DNA from: Methanocalculus chunghsingensis
GTDB lineage: Archaea > Halobacteriota > Methanomicrobia > Methanomicrobiales > Methanocorpusculaceae
Reading direction: 5' to 3'
Assembly: GCF_018132105.1 (NCBI RefSeq)
Contig: NZ_JWHL01000009.1
Location: 5,125-69,124 of the forward strand
Length of the DNA: 64,000 nucleotides
Shown here: one piece after another, positions 43,335 through 49,076 of the stretch
Layout of the letters: the number at the start of each line of letters is the position of its first letter
Numbering within the stretch: position 1 is the stretch's first letter
Translations under genes and position numbers: made by a program
The notes under the pieces: generated by a model
What the model was told of the DNA's origin: nothing
What the model saw: only the letters and a program-made list of their open reading frames with translations
Databases searched by the model: none

Positions 43335-43931
43335 TTATCGTCTCACAGGCCAGATATACCACTCCTCTGCCTTAACGGAAGTCCCATCCGGGAACATGGC
43401 CTTGACATGAATCCTTCCGATACCGCGATCCTGTTCGTTGAAGGAGAGTTCATGGTAAGGAATCCAGATTCCCCGGAGTGGGAAATCCCCTTCAGGCAGA
43501 GAGCGGCTGATGGTCGCAAACCCCCGGTACAGAAGGCGTGGAGATATCCGGAAGCCGCGGCGATCGATATCCGGGGTGTACACGCTTACCTCCATCGAGA
43601 CGGAGGATCCATCAAAGGTGACATGGCGATTATTTCCGTCATAGAACCTGTATTTAACGACCAGGCCATCCAGATCACCAAACCCTCCAAGATCTGCAGG
43701 CTCTGCCCAGATCACCATGGCAGAGATGGTGCGTATTCCGCCAGGTGCAGAAACCGCAGCCGGCTCCGGAGTGTCATTCGGATCTGTATCAGCAGGTGTT
43801 GATGTGGAAGAGAGATCGGCCGCGGGATCTGTATCACGATCACCCGGGAGTGGTATCATCCCGGTATACACTGCCAGAGAGATCGCAAGAATGACCGCAA
43901 TGGCAACGACGACGATTGCACGAGTATCCAT
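43335..43931 (-). CDS. membrane-anchored secreted protein, unknown function
   Basis: 198 residues from ATG 43931. An N-terminal signal anchor (AIVVVAIAVILAISLAVY), a disordered Asp/Pro/Thr-rich linker (about residues 30-62), then a beta-rich domain with VIWAEPADLGGFGDLDGLVV, and IHVKAMFPDGTSVKAEEWYIWPV at the end. No family recognised. Its start is 41 bp from that of the divergent methylase-like gene. Confidence 0.65.
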   Translation of the reverse strand: MDTRAIVVVAIAVILAISLAVYTGMIPLPGDRDTDPAADLSSTSTPADTDPNDTPEPAAVSAPGGIRTISAMVIWAEPADLGGFGDLDGLVVKYRFYDGNNRHVTFDGSSVSMEVSVYTPDIDRRGFRISPRLLYRGFATISRSLPEGDFPLRGIWIPYHELSFNEQDRGIGRIHVKAMFPDGTSVKAEEWYIWPVRR

Positions 43932-43972
43932 GCCTGAACCTTCTGGCATATCAGCAGATAAGGATTCTTGTC

Positions 43973-46099
43973 ATGGAGAAAGGGGGTGATAGGATAAAAG
44001 AAGAGAGAGCTCAGCTCCCAGAGGCCATCAGAAGATTTATTGCACGATACACCCGATCCGGAGGATATCAATCAGTCCTCATACCATGGGTTGGGGATTT
44101 TGGGTCATATCTGCCACTCTTTGACGAGATAGGAGCGACCCGGCTGGTCGCGATCACAGAGCATGCCGGTCACCCGGAGAGGGAAGGCGTGCATCTCATC
44201 GAGGGTGGTACAGACGAGGTTCTCTCCGGCTGCAATGAGAGATTTGATCTCATCATTGCAGTTCCACCCATTGAAAGACCGGATCCAGCCATGGATGCCA
44301 GGGTTCAGGAGAAGCAGATCATCAACCCGGACAATGAGGAGAGAACGGCTATGCTGATCCGGGCAGGGGGACTCCTCTCCCATAACGGGGTGCTCTTCTG
44401 CATCACTGATCCAGATTTCTTTGCAGGCGGAAAGAATGCAGGCATCCTGAAAGAGCACGGACTCTTTCCACAGGCAGCATTCTCCCTTCCACGCGGAGTC
44501 TTCCCCCCCGTCGCCGGGAGGAGGCGTCTCCTCGTCATCATCCGGCAGGGAGAGGAGGGAAGGATGATGGCAGGAGAACTCTCCCCTGAAGACGGGCGGC
44601 AGGAGATCCTGATGCAGAATCTTCTGAATGGAACGGAGGGAAAGACGGCACAACATGGGAGATTCATCAGCCCGTTTGTGTTCCGGAGCCTTGGAGAGAT
44701 TCTCCTTGAGGACGAGGTACAGAAGCTTGCCGAGGAGCAGGGCACAGCAGCGGTTCCTTTCTCCGGCCTTGCCAGATCGATTACAATAGGGGCGTGCGGG
44801 CTGCCACAGGATGCAGGCAGGCGACTCTATCTCCCTTACTCTCCTGCAATCCCACCAGCTACCAGAGATGAGGATATCGCCATTGCACCCGGTGAAACCG
44901 CATGTATCCTCCTCAGGCCGGATGCCGTCGATCCCGGGTACCTCATCCTCTTCTTCACCACACCACTCGGCCATGCCATCCGGGAGCTGATAGCACGCAG
45001 GGCAGGAGATATCAGCCGGTTCCGTGAGACGCTCTCCCTTGCTACAATCTATCTTCCAGCCCCACAGGTGCAGGCTGAGGTGCTCAGAATCCATGGCGAG
45101 ATCGAATCACTGAAACAGAAGCTCGATTCTATCGGAGAAGATCTCCTCAACCATCCACATTCATCCCGTTCTGCTCTCGAAAGGATGAAAAACCTGATGG
45201 AAGGGGATGGACTCCATGAATGGACAGAGACCCTTCCATTTCCACTTGCTTCCATCATCTGGGCATACATTGCCGAAGATTCTCCTGAGAAGAAGCAGAA
45301 CCATCTCTTCCACCTCTTCGAAGCATCTGCTGAGTTCCTCTCTCTCATCCTCATATCAGGGATTGCTCCCCTCACAGAAACCGAAGAGATCGACCTTCTT
45401 GACGAGAACCCTGAGTTTCGTGATATCTATCGATATGCGACATTCCGGAGCTGGATCATCCTCTGCAGGAGGACGGGGAGATTCGTCAGAAAAAGGCTTG
45501 CATCACCGGAAGAGCGCGACGAGATAATGGCACTCTTCGGTAACCCGCCACGCGGCTTCATCGATCTTATCACCGATAAACGTCTCTTCACTCTCTTTGA
45601 CGAGGTTGCGGATCTCAGAAATGACTGGAAAGGCCATGGGGGCATCGTAAGTATTGCAGGATATGAAGAGCGACTGGCAACGCTTGAAGAGTATCTGAAG
45701 AGATACCAGCGGATTGTACGGGATCATTTTACCGATGTAACCCTTGTAATTCCCGGATCAGGAGAGTATCGTGATGGGATCTTCACCTACAAAGCTGATG
45801 CACTTATGGGATCCCGCTCCAGATTCCGGACGATTCATCTTCAGACACGTATCCCGCTTGATACCGGGAAGGTGTACCTCCATGCGCAGGGGAGTTCGGA
45901 GCCGCTCGAACTCCTCCCACTCTTCCGGCTGGAGAGACATCCAAAGACCGGAGCGCCTGCATGGTACTTCTATAACAGAATCGACGGAAGGAGCGTTCGC
46001 TGGATATCGTACCATTATGAGGCATCGCCGGAGTTTGAGGAGGAGAATGACGAGGTCTATCAGACAATGAAACGCCTTCTGCTCATCAGCGGTGAGTAA
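43973..46099 (+). CDS. degenerate N6-methylase/specificity protein with HEPN-like motif
   Basis: 708 residues from ATG 43973. Residues about 30-210 have the shape of an N6-adenine methylase: FDLIIAVPPI (94-100) stands where NPPF/Y should be, followed by the family-like AGGLLSHNGVLFCIT and VFPPVAGRRRLLVII. The SAM loop is not conserved, so it is probably inactive as a methylase. Residues about 225-410 resemble a type I specificity half-subunit, ending in IYLPAPQVQAEVLRIHGEIE. From about 430 it is helical and contains RNDWKGH (Arg549-His555), matching the Rx4-6H motif of HEPN ribonucleases. A beta-rich C-terminus follows. No separate HsdR or active HsdM lies nearby. A DNA glycosylase gene follows by two bases. 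Confidence 0.6.
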   Translation: MEKGGDRIKEERAQLPEAIRRFIARYTRSGGYQSVLIPWVGDFGSYLPLFDEIGATRLVAITEHAGHPEREGVHLIEGGTDEVLSGCNERFDLIIAVPPIERPDPAMDARVQEKQIINPDNEERTAMLIRAGGLLSHNGVLFCITDPDFFAGGKNAGILKEHGLFPQAAFSLPRGVFPPVAGRRRLLVIIRQGEEGRMMAGELSPEDGRQEILMQNLLNGTEGKTAQHGRFISPFVFRSLGEILLEDEVQKLAEEQGTAAVPFSGLARSITIGACGLPQDAGRRLYLPYSPAIPPATRDEDIAIAPGETACILLRPDAVDPGYLILFFTTPLGHAIRELIARRAGDISRFRETLSLATIYLPAPQVQAEVLRIHGEIESLKQKLDSIGEDLLNHPHSSRSALERMKNLMEGDGLHEWTETLPFPLASIIWAYIAEDSPEKKQNHLFHLFEASAEFLSLILISGIAPLTETEEIDLLDENPEFRDIYRYATFRSWIILCRRTGRFVRKRLASPEERDEIMALFGNPPRGFIDLITDKRLFTLFDEVADLRNDWKGHGGIVSIAGYEERLATLEEYLKRYQRIVRDHFTDVTLVIPGSGEYRDGIFTYKADALMGSRSRFRTIHLQTRIPLDTGKVYLHAQGSSEPLELLPLFRLERHPKTGAPAWYFYNRIDGRSVRWISYHYEASPEFEEENDEVYQTMKRLLLISGE

Positions 46100-46101
46100 C
46101 G

Positions 46102-46944
46102 ATGGAGCAATGCAGAATACTCACCCTTGAAGGATCGGCACTCCCCTTCGATCTCGATATAACACTTGGTTGCGGCCAGGTCTTCCGGTTCGAAAAGATC
46201 GGCCGCTGGTGGTGTGGCATCCTTGGAGACGAGGTGGTGAGGATACGGCAGGAGGGAAGAGATCTCCACTTTGCAGGTACCACTGAGGATCAGATCATCA
46301 GGTACTTTGATCTCGATCTGGATCTTGAGGCAATACTTGCAGGATTTCCTGATGAACCCCTTCTTGCTTCTGCAGTCGGGCATGCTTATGGTCTGAGGAT
46401 CGTCCGCCAGCCGGCCTGGGAGTGTACCGCGTCATATATCGTTGCAACATTTGCGAACATTCCCGGGATACGCACCCGGATACGCCTCCTCTGTGAACGG
46501 TTCGGCGAGGAGATCCGATCCGGACACTATACCTTCCCACAACCAGGTGTTCTTGCATCTTCTCCACTCTGTGACATCCGGAGCTGCCGTGTCGGGTACC
46601 GGGACCGCTTCCTTTGCGGGACGGCAGGGATGATCAGGGATGAGCCTGGCTGGGACCGAAAGATCGCCGATCTCGAATACAGGGATGCCAGAAAAGCGCT
46701 GATGAGGTATCCGGGTGTCGGGCGGAAGGTGGCCGACTGCATCCTCCTCTTCGCTTTTCACCGATTTGAAGCGGTTCCGGTTGACGTCTGGATCGATCGC
46801 ATCATGCGGACCCATTACCTTGAGGAGGGGAAGCGGTACAGCTATGACAGAATCGCAGATCAGGCACGGGCCATCTTTGGCCCCCATGCCGGATACGCAC
46901 AGGAGTATCTCTTCGCGGCACGGAGTCAGATGATAAAAAAGTGA
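46102..46944 (+). CDS. ogg: 8-oxoguanine DNA glycosylase, OGG1-like
   Basis: 280 residues. It excises oxidised guanine and, with lyase activity, nicks the abasic site. FDLDITLGCGQVFRFEK opens the N-terminal domain. The helix-hairpin-helix plus catalytic Lys is in YPGVGRKVADCILLF and the catalytic Asp in PVDVWIDRIM. QPAWECTASYIVATFANI is also typical of OGG1. It follows the methylase-like gene by two bases and is probably cotranscribed with it. Confidence 0.9.
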   Translation: MEQCRILTLEGSALPFDLDITLGCGQVFRFEKIGRWWCGILGDEVVRIRQEGRDLHFAGTTEDQIIRYFDLDLDLEAILAGFPDEPLLASAVGHAYGLRIVRQPAWECTASYIVATFANIPGIRTRIRLLCERFGEEIRSGHYTFPQPGVLASSPLCDIRSCRVGYRDRFLCGTAGMIRDEPGWDRKIADLEYRDARKALMRYPGVGRKVADCILLFAFHRFEAVPVDVWIDRIMRTHYLEEGKRYSYDRIADQARAIFGPHAGYAQEYLFAARSQMIKK

Positions 46945-46949
46945 GATGG

Positions 46950-48173
46950 TTATGTTCCGGCATCCCAGGAGGCCATATACTCCTCCTGCTCAGCGGTAGG
47001 GCTATCGATACTGCATCCAAGTGAAGCGAGCTTTAACCGGGCGATCTCCTCATCGATTGCTGTTGGGACATCATGAACACCAGGGATGAGGTTCTTTCCA
47101 TGTCTGACCATGTACTCCGTCGAAAGTGCCTGGACGGCAAAGGAGAGATCCATCACCTCGATCGGGTGACCCATCCCCTTTGGAACGGCAAGATTCACGA
47201 GCCGGCCTTCTGCAAGAACGTGGAGCGTCCGGTCACTGAAGGTATACGAATCGATCCCGTCCCGGCGGCTGATCGTATCGGCGTGCGTCTCAAGATACCC
47301 GATATCGATCTCGACATTGAAGTGGCCTGCATTACAGAGGATCGCACCATTACGCATCAGACCAAATTCCGCTTCTTTCAGGACACCAATATTTCCGGTT
47401 GTGGTGACGAAGAGCTCGCCGATACGGGATGCCTCCCTGATCGTCATCACCTCAAAGCCGTCAAAATGGGCCTGGAGGGCACGGCGGGGATCGATCTCGG
47501 TGATGATGACCCGTGCACCGAGTGCCCGTGCCTTCGTTGCGAGACCCCGGCCGCAGTACCCGTATCCGGCGACGACTATGTGCTTTCCTGCGATCAGAAT
47601 ATTCGTCGTCGCCATGATGGCAGTAAGCGCACTCTCACCGGTACCGTGGACATTATCGAAGAAGTGCTTCATCGGAGTATCATTAACGGCGATCACCGGG
47701 AACCGGAGTTTCCCCTCCGCTGCCATCGACTTGAGCCGGTGGATCCCGGTCGTCGTCTCTTCACACCCTCCGAGGACGCCGGGGAGGATATCCCGCCTGC
47801 CTGTATGGAGCCGGTGGATGAGATCCATCCCGTCATCGATGGTGATTGAAGGGCGCGCATCAAGGACCTTGTCGATTGCCTCATAATATTCCTCAAGCGA
47901 GCAGGCACGTTTCGCATAACAGTGGATCGTCCCTCCTGAGAGGGCTGATGCCACATCGTCCTGGGTCGAGAGCGGGTTGCAGCCGGTGATATGCACCTCT
48001 GCACCACCTGCTGCAAGTGTCCGGGCAAGGATGGCGGTCTTTGCCTCGACATGGAGTGCCATCCCGATGACGATCCCTTCGAATGGCTGTTCTCTGATAA
48101 AACGCTCCCGGATCTCCCTGAGAACCGGCATATACTGCTCCGCCCAGCGGATCTTCTCTTCACCTGTCTGCAT
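46950..48173 (-). CDS. ahcY: S-adenosylhomocysteine / S-inosylhomocysteine hydrolase
   Basis: 407 residues from ATG 48173. It recycles the product of SAM-dependent methylation. The NAD motif GYGYCGRGLATKARALGA lies near residue 206 and the C-terminal DLSFAVQALS is conserved. Methanogen homologs have been reported to prefer S-inosylhomocysteine after deamination of SAH; that activity is possible here. The frame open to 48194 gives a longer N-terminus that is not needed. Confidence 0.93.
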   Translation of the reverse strand: MQTGEEKIRWAEQYMPVLREIRERFIREQPFEGIVIGMALHVEAKTAILARTLAAGGAEVHITGCNPLSTQDDVASALSGGTIHCYAKRACSLEEYYEAIDKVLDARPSITIDDGMDLIHRLHTGRRDILPGVLGGCEETTTGIHRLKSMAAEGKLRFPVIAVNDTPMKHFFDNVHGTGESALTAIMATTNILIAGKHIVVAGYGYCGRGLATKARALGARVIITEIDPRRALQAHFDGFEVMTIREASRIGELFVTTTGNIGVLKEAEFGLMRNGAILCNAGHFNVEIDIGYLETHADTISRRDGIDSYTFSDRTLHVLAEGRLVNLAVPKGMGHPIEVMDLSFAVQALSTEYMVRHGKNLIPGVHDVPTAIDEEIARLKLASLGCSIDSPTAEQEEYMASWDAGT

Positions 48174-48269
48174 ACTGTACCCCTGTACTACCACTATGCA
48201 CGCAGGATCTCTTAATCAATCCCGATGGGAACAGACGCTTGATAAGAGGATGCGCCCTATGATCTGGTG

Positions 48270-49076
48270 ATGGCATTAACACGCAGAATTATCCCCTGCC
48301 TCGACCTGAAGAACGGACGGGTCGTGAAAGGGACACATTTTGAGGACCTCAGGGATGCGGGCGATCCGGTCGAACTGGCGGCACGATACAATGAACAGGG
48401 GGCAGACGAGGTGGTCTTCCTCGATATCACCGCATCGAAAGAGGCCCGGAAGACGATCATTGATCTCATCTCCAGGGCTGCGGACCAGCTCTTCCTCCCC
48501 CTCACCGTCGGGGGTGGTATCAGGACAAACGATGATATCACCGCCATCCTCAGGGCAGGTGCAGATAAGGTCTCCATCAATACTGCGGCGGTCCAGAATC
48601 CGGCGATCATCTCCGAGGGGGCGGCGGCATTTGGCACCCAGTGTATCGTCCTTGCGATGGATGTGAGGCGGAATTTTCAGGAGGCAGAAGGAACAAACCC
48701 GATCAGGCTCCCGGATGGGAGTACCTGCTGGTATGAGGTCGTCACCCATGGCGGGAGCAGACCGACAGGTATCGATGCGATACGTTGGGCAAAAGAGGGA
48801 GAAGAGCGGGGTGCCGGCGAGATTCTCCTGACATCGATGGAGACGGACGGGACAAAGGAGGGGTTTGATATCCCGATCACCGAGGCGATCGCGTCTGCAA
48901 CCAGTATTCCGGTCATCGCTTCCGGAGGGGTCGGTACACTCGGGCATTTTTATGACGGGTTTGTGTATGGCAAGGCAGATGCCTGCCTCGCCGCATCCGT
49001 CTTCCACTTCGGGGAATATACAATAAAAGATGTAAAAGAGTATCTTGCCGCAAAGGGCGTCCCTGTGCGGCTATAA
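48270..49076 (+). CDS. hisF: imidazole glycerol phosphate synthase, cyclase subunit
   Basis: 268 residues. TIM barrel that with HisH makes IGP and AICAR in histidine biosynthesis. Catalytic Asp residues are in [16 protein letters not shown] (near residue 12) and [31 protein letters not shown] is the phosphate site. A GTG three bases upstream could also be used. A solo gene; hisH is not in view. Confidence 0.95.

Follow-up and report, generated by a model that had tools for sequence, protein, structure and literature searches.

Of the described systems, PrrC, the anticodon nuclease of the type I system EcoprrI and a protein with an ATPase part, is among the closest to the locus discussed here. 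It is a suicide effector that cuts RNA through a HEPN-type active site, and its gene stands beside type I R-M genes (PMC3710099, PMC3874165); the protein is sequestered by EcoprrI and released upon T4 infection (PMC3874165). HEPN domains are described as carrying an Rx4-6H motif at the end of helix 3, with a polar residue after the arginine, and an acidic residue in helix 2 (PMC3710099). According to the 2013 survey of these domains, those that are linked to R-M genes are fused to restriction enzymes, helicases and ATPases and not to methylases, although a table in the same paper nonetheless contains occasional DUF86-methylase fusions (PMC3710099). Fused MTase~TRD proteins are known as well, and some of them are thought to be homodimeric (PMC3874165). 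In the literature that we searched, which lay largely outside the subscription journals, no paper on a fusion of methylase, HsdS and HEPN-like parts was found.

In this report, we examine a gene that appears to join these parts in one chain. It lies in a 64,000-nucleotide stretch of Methanocalculus chunghsingensis DNA (the window), and it is compared here with about 25 relatives from the Methanomicrobiales, Bacteroidota, Bacillota, Actinomycetota and Planctomycetota and from one viral contig. We will argue that the family represents a PrrC-like sentinel derived from R-M systems, in which a DNA-recognition platform would restrain a HEPN-like RNase, and we assign a probability of roughly 0.55 to this reading.

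The open reading frame extends over 43916-46099 on the forward strand, and the ATG at 43973 gives a protein of 708 residues. Its parts and the genes that follow it are listed here, with the evidence for each in brackets.

43973..46099, forward strand: whole gene, with a pseudo-methylase, an HsdS-like segment, a HEPN-like domain and a C-terminal beta domain (ORF, archaeal members, bacterial homologs)
44012..44557, forward strand: degenerate gamma-class N6-methylase (Rossmann) fold, residues 14-195 (HsdM profile matches, Foldseek matches to M.TaqI and CamA)
44075..44104, forward strand: motif I position, VLIPWVGDFG, with the canonical DPxxGxG gone (motif table)
44246..44269, forward strand: motif IV position, DLIIAVPP in place of (N/D/S)PP(Y/F/W) (alignment, motif table)
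44558..44926, forward strand: putative single TRD-like region, residues 196-318, with approximate boundaries (position between methylase fold and HsdS-type segment)
44927..45157, forward strand: HsdS-type segment, IYLPAPQ and a long coiled helix, residues 319-395 (HsdS structure and PADLOC Specificity_I matches, model)
45158..45736, forward strand: HEPN-like helical domain, residues 396-588 (AlphaFold model of residues 396-708, slow evolution)
45320..45322, forward strand: Glu450, invariant acidic residue in an early long helix (alignments, helix 43-76 of the domain model)
45617..45643, forward strand: RNDWKGHGG, Rx5H motif, residues 549-557 (invariant R, N, H and G, domain model)
45737..46096, forward strand: C-terminal beta-rich domain with a conserved YFYNR, residues 589-708 (domain model, conservation in all members)
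46102..46944, forward strand: ogg-type DNA glycosylase, 2 bp 3' of the target gene (TIGR00588 at 7e-46, which is below the cut-off; PF07934 at 7e-16)
46950..48194, reverse strand: adenosylhomocysteinase-like gene, belonging to the ancestral ogg-ahcY-hisF block (assigned by sequence and gene order)
48267..49076, forward strand: hisF-like gene of the same ogg-ahcY-hisF block (named from sequence, conserved gene order)

On its own, the 708-residue protein gives no match in scans of Pfam, NCBIfam and PADLOC, and a phmmer search of the PDB returns only a chance coiled-coil match. Its last ~120 residues, which the sequence-only reading had not set apart, constitute a separate beta-rich domain in the structure model, for which Foldseek finds no structural match. 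At the other end, a strong Shine-Dalgarno-like GGGGGTGAT is present at window positions 43979-43990, just within the reading-frame side of the assumed start codon, and the 13 N-terminal residues are poorly predicted; the true start may differ from the ATG at 43973. A small secreted or lipoprotein-like protein is encoded divergently from the target gene at 43335-43949 on the reverse strand. A similar ORF occupies the same place in other Methanocalculus genomes, and the protein has no NCBIfam or PADLOC match.

For the comparison with the PDB, a profile was built from 18 relatives. Its first ~240 columns match the HsdM structures 7eew (2e-8), 2f8l and 7vru_A (2e-8 to 3e-7), while columns ~340-457 match the HsdS chains 7vru_C (7e-7), 8w0p_C (S.BsaXI) and 2y7c (EcoKI). 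The latter matches cover IYLPAPQ and the region of the long helix, which spans residues 364-393 in the model of the window protein, and over this helix region PADLOC Specificity_I models match at most 11 of the 18 family members. A Foldseek search with the full-length model (pLDDT 81) has M.TaqI as its best match (1e-7), followed by CamA. The N6-methylase fold carrying AVPP and the type I specificity-like segment with its coiled helix, both first recognized from the letters of the sequence, are thus borne out. Model and alignment agree on one HsdS-type segment per chain, and the two TRDs and two conserved regions of HsdS were not found. The TRD of the window protein was assigned from its position between the methylase fold and the HsdS-type segment, and this TRD-like region is poorly conserved across genera.

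The motif IV position of the window protein reads FDLIIAVPPIE (D92..P99), with no NPPY/F. The pattern (N/D/S)PP(Y/F/W) is absent from every family member with a readable motif IV, the replacements being AVPP, LFPP, SFPP, STPP, FSPF, LSPL and DLPF, together with EIPY in Streptomyces and DAPW in Gordonia; the viral-contig fragment does not extend to this region and is therefore not part of the motif IV reading. With the canonical motif missing in every member read, the earlier proposal of a non-methylating module is supported across the whole family. The methylase fold with its HsdS-type half looks like a dead M~half-S subunit, and from homology we infer that this platform would bind DNA.

The RNDWKGH of the helical domain had been taken as the Rx4-6H motif of HEPN ribonucleases, and the analysis confirms it, at residues 549-557. 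It is important to realize that such a motif by itself is weak evidence, because the loose pattern R[NDH]x3-5H is present in 14 of the 71 long ORFs of the window; what counts is its invariance. In an alignment of 22 rows, whose identities go down to about 25-26%, R549, N550, H555 and G557 do not vary, and the same holds in a 10-row check that adds a plasmid and a viral-contig member. The poor conservation of Arg549 and His555 that the sequence-only reading named as grounds for abandoning the idea is thus not what is found. Glu450 is also unchanged across the family alignments. The motif reads RNxWxxH (Rx5H) in 25 members, the one from the viral contig has RNDIGH (Rx4H), and the family conforms to the HEPN pattern of Rx4-6H with N, D or H following the arginine.

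An AlphaFold model of residues 396-708, made with 22 sequences, has a pLDDT of 89.5 and a pTM of 0.89 and shows a helical domain with a beta domain C-terminal to it. As read from the secondary-structure string, and in the numbering of the domain model, R154 lies in helix 141-159, H160 in a loop, and E55 in helix 43-76, the next helix after the loop being 166-187. In other words, a helix ends shortly after R549, H555 falls in the loop that leads into the last long helix, and Glu450 belongs to a long helix further towards the N-terminus; this predicted placement matches the description of HEPN domains in PMC3710099. Of four species pairs compared, three have their lowest dN/dS in the HEPN-like part (0.07-0.11); in the fourth, very close pair, with few changes, the value is 0.28.

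We have also compared the domain with known folds and families. The model of the HEPN-like and beta domains gives no significant Foldseek match in the PDB and BFVD and no HEPN among them, a HEPN model is absent from the Pfam matches of 22 domain slices at E<=10, and a PDB profile search with the helical domain yields no HEPN match. The hhalign comparisons with Abi_C, DUF4145 and PF05168 gave no signal, and neither did known HEPN families when compared with one another; this result was counted neither for nor against HEPN. Motif, modelled helix placement and conservation make a HEPN identity likely, and we regard membership of the helical domain in the HEPN superfamily as distinctly probable.

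If a true member is defined by E below 1e-70, the gene occurs in 13 of 232 Methanomicrobiales genomes, namely in seven of the eight Methanocalculus genomes, in all those seen of the Methanomicrobiaceae genera g14 and g24, and in one of a third genus (G033). The eighth Methanocalculus genome is fragmented and has no ogg match either, and the absence there may be an assembly gap. Weaker profile matches in the order (E > 1e-11) were excluded as members; they cover the methylase or the HsdS part only and resemble ordinary HsdM or HsdS. The bacterial survey comprised one genome-contig scan and samples of a few bacterial families. The scan gave members in Psychroflexus, Rufibacter, Salinibacillus, Sinobaca, Flavobacterium, Bacillus, Alkalibacterium and Marinilactibacillus, and also in a Lachnospiraceae strain and a Planctomycetales MAG; plasmid searches added members from Streptomyces and Gordonia, which are annotated as 'N-6 DNA methylase', and the genome samples further ones from Flavobacteriaceae and Lachnospiraceae. 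In the Flavobacteriaceae sample of 301 genomes and the Lachnospiraceae sample of 299, full copies are rare, with two genomes each, one of which is the query genome. A scan of viral contigs gave one family fragment, and tblastn of phage records gave no family member. The viral-contig fragment (L113:2-1099, IMGVR_UViG_3300020120_000245) is cut off at the contig start and has a serine-recombinase-like ORF downstream. On the Gordonia plasmid pJH63-1 (L066:7522-10041), the member consists of two adjacent 'N-6 DNA methylase' ORFs, through either a frameshift or a real split.

Thirteen bacterial loci were counted, with the near-identical Alkalibacterium and Marinilactibacillus loci taken as one. In eight of them, type I R-M genes adjoin the family gene or stand within a few genes of it:

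Rufibacter: HsdS, HsdR, family gene
Salinibacillus: HsdR upstream of the family gene
Flavobacterium: HsdM, HsdS and HsdR, divergent from the family gene
Alkalibacterium: HsdR upstream of the family gene
Lachnospiraceae, first locus: HsdR, HsdM, HsdS, another gene, family gene
Lachnospiraceae, second locus (G745, L115:4860-17841): HsdM, HsdS, another gene, HsdR, family gene, another gene, McrB-like gene, McrC-like gene, in one run that forms a compact restriction island
Planctomycetales: family gene, HsdR
Gordonia: HsdM, HsdS, HsdR, family gene, the last split in two ORFs

Assuming that hsdR occurs in 2% of 14-kb stretches, the chance of eight such loci in thirteen is ~3e-11, and the association of the bacterial relatives with R-M genes is strong. 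This linkage supports the defence role that the sequence had suggested. The Psychroflexus member has Gabija-like neighbours, an OLD-TOPRIM ATPase gene and a UvrD helicase gene, and the Sinobaca member is near a PDDEXK_7 gene; no R-M genes are present in the DNA inspected for Bacillus, the second Flavobacteriaceae genome and Streptomyces. A protein of ~458 residues is encoded directly 3' of the family member in both Salinibacillus (L017:10090-11466) and Bacillus (L020:10087-11463). It has no Pfam match (L017 copy), and it is possibly a partner of the family member.

In the window, no HsdM, HsdS or HsdR is found near the gene, just as had been stated at the outset. The HSDR_N and N6_Mtase matches of this genome lie on other contigs, so that the protein might have type I partners in trans. 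In the archaeal G033 genome, the family gene overlaps an ORF on its upstream side, putatively the end of an HsdS, although Pfam gives no match for this short ORF. In Methanocalculus, g14 and g24, which belong to two families, the gene stands directly upstream of ogg, with a spacing of -4 to +6 bp. Other family members have no ogg link. The ogg gene itself belongs to the core of the order, with a copy in 132 of 135 good Methanomicrobiales genomes, and none of the 24 ogg loci inspected from other genera carries the family gene, for which reason we rejected the idea that it belongs to the ogg operon throughout the order. At 22 of these 24 loci, ogg is followed by ahcY and often then by hisF; of the remaining two, one lies at a contig end and the other, a Methanocorpusculum-family locus, has another neighbour. 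A comparison of ogg-ahcY loci with and without the family gene thus indicates that it came to lie next to a block that is older than the insertion. The ogg-linked members group in a single clade (99/98), divided along family lines, in agreement with a gene that was inserted once and then inherited and lost in places; the family gene and ogg may also have been transferred as a pair. As to the suggested link with the neighbouring glycosylase, the gene order stands, being conserved in three genera, whereas a functional link would be no more than possible, given that nearly every good genome of the order has ogg. Where the flank is readable, the Methanocalculus copies are at one locus, and retention in seven of eight genomes at one locus, with no linked hsd genes, is unlike the behaviour of a mobile defence gene.

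In the mechanism that we propose, the methylase fold and the HsdS-type half would form a non-methylating DNA-recognition platform, and this dead M~half-S subunit may dimerise via its coiled helix. The platform would keep the HEPN-like RNase domain in check. Its engagement by foreign or mis-modified DNA, or disturbance of a partner type I complex, would free the RNase, which would then cut cellular or viral RNA and bring growth to a stop, as PrrC does for EcoprrI. In bacteria, the protein would mostly work alongside type I R-M genes, while in Methanocalculus and its relatives it would have settled upstream of ogg and might act by itself or together with type I enzymes whose genes lie elsewhere. 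Seen this way, the family protein is probably a back-up antiviral trap with a putative RNA-cutting activity.

A further observation bears on the modular nature of the protein. A Flavobacteriaceae protein (L068:1006-2736, which is the same as L116:3675-5405 of G250) aligns with the platform over columns 132-461 (2e-53), and it ends in an SLFN_AlbA_2 domain (3e-17), the HEPN-like domain not being there. Its gene adjoins an HSDR_N_2-N6_Mtase gene and an HsdS gene. This single case supports a reading as platform plus effector. It is conceivable, if rather doubtful, that the dead M~half-S is a general DNA-sensing chassis with swapped RNA-attacking effectors ('pseudo-restriction' guards), one lineage of which became fixed in methanogens and tied to an 8-oxoguanine repair gene as a DNA-status-gated RNase.

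The M and S homology and the frequent hsd linkage could also speak for a variant subunit of type I R-M enzymes, i.e. a non-catalytic HsdMSR partner that alters specificity or limits methylation or restriction, and the lack of a fold-level HEPN match would suit a helical domain that is a docking module with structural invariant residues. We consider this unlikely, since R, N, H and Glu are strictly invariant in a HEPN arrangement, a Schlafen AlbA_2 domain stands at the same place in one relative, and Methanocalculus retains the gene with no linked hsd genes. Another option is that the methanogen gene has become a housekeeping member of the ogg operon, for example as a nuclease that responds to damage or as a partner of the glycosylase, and at present plays no part in defence. 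Most of the order lacks the gene although ogg is nearly universal there, other members have no link to ogg, and the conserved motif is common to the hsd-linked members, which makes this option quite unlikely, even though the position directly upstream of ogg in three genera and two families, the splitting of the ogg-linked clade by family as descent predicts, and the purifying selection all agree with it.

Two explanations start from the methylase itself. In the g14 and g24 relatives, a motif I of the DPxAGxG type is retained, and the Streptomyces member matches Pfam N6_Mtase at 9e-30, as might be the case if the protein were a working DNA methyltransferase with an atypical motif IV, fused to an accessory domain. 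The catalytic Asn/Asp/Ser of motif IV is, however, missing in every member read, the window protein has also lost motif I (IPWVGDFG), and the methylase part is the fastest-evolving one (dN/dS 0.29-0.49), so that we find this highly improbable. A decaying relic of an R-M gene, for which one could cite the degenerate methylase motifs and the Gordonia copy in two ORFs, is harder still to credit. Apart from the Gordonia copy and those at contig ends, the frames are full-length, and dN/dS is well below 1, with 0.15-0.29 over the whole gene in four pairs, indicating purifying selection, and the lowest values in the HEPN-like part of three pairs; a decaying pseudogene was rejected on these dN/dS values.

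The reading as a PrrC-like sentinel has consequences for how such genes are viewed. With the methylase partner dead, DNA recognition has seemingly been reused for sensing, and the annotation of bacterial copies as 'N-6 DNA methylase' masks a likely defence effector. The ogg-linked archaeal clade offers a testable case of an R-M guard turned into a DNA-damage-linked gene.

Compared with PrrC, many bacterial relatives of the window protein have the same type I R-M gene context, but where PrrC has an N-terminal ATPase domain, the window protein has a methylase fold and an HsdS part, that is, a putative DNA-recognition platform of its own, and its gene is not in an hsd operon. With fused gamma-MTase~TRD proteins such as M.TaqI, its best structural match, and with homodimeric M~S enzymes of the M.DrdI and HaeIV type it shares a methylase fold followed by one recognition segment in a single chain; it differs from them in having no catalytic motif and no restriction domain and in the added HEPN-like and beta domains. 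The DUF4145 helicase-REase proteins and the HEPN-DUF499 ATPases likewise have a HEPN-type motif joined to an R-M component, although the partners there are nucleases, helicases and ATPases and here a methylase. Abi_C (PF14355), which is HEPN-like by motif, has a similar RN....HG, and hhalign places the two in register at no significance, but the spacing is Rx6H in the two Abi_C sequences seen and there is no detectable overall sequence similarity. The family thus appears to be an exception, on a dead methylase, to the rule that R-M-linked HEPN domains are not fused to methylases, and it extends the known theme of such domains as a new variant.
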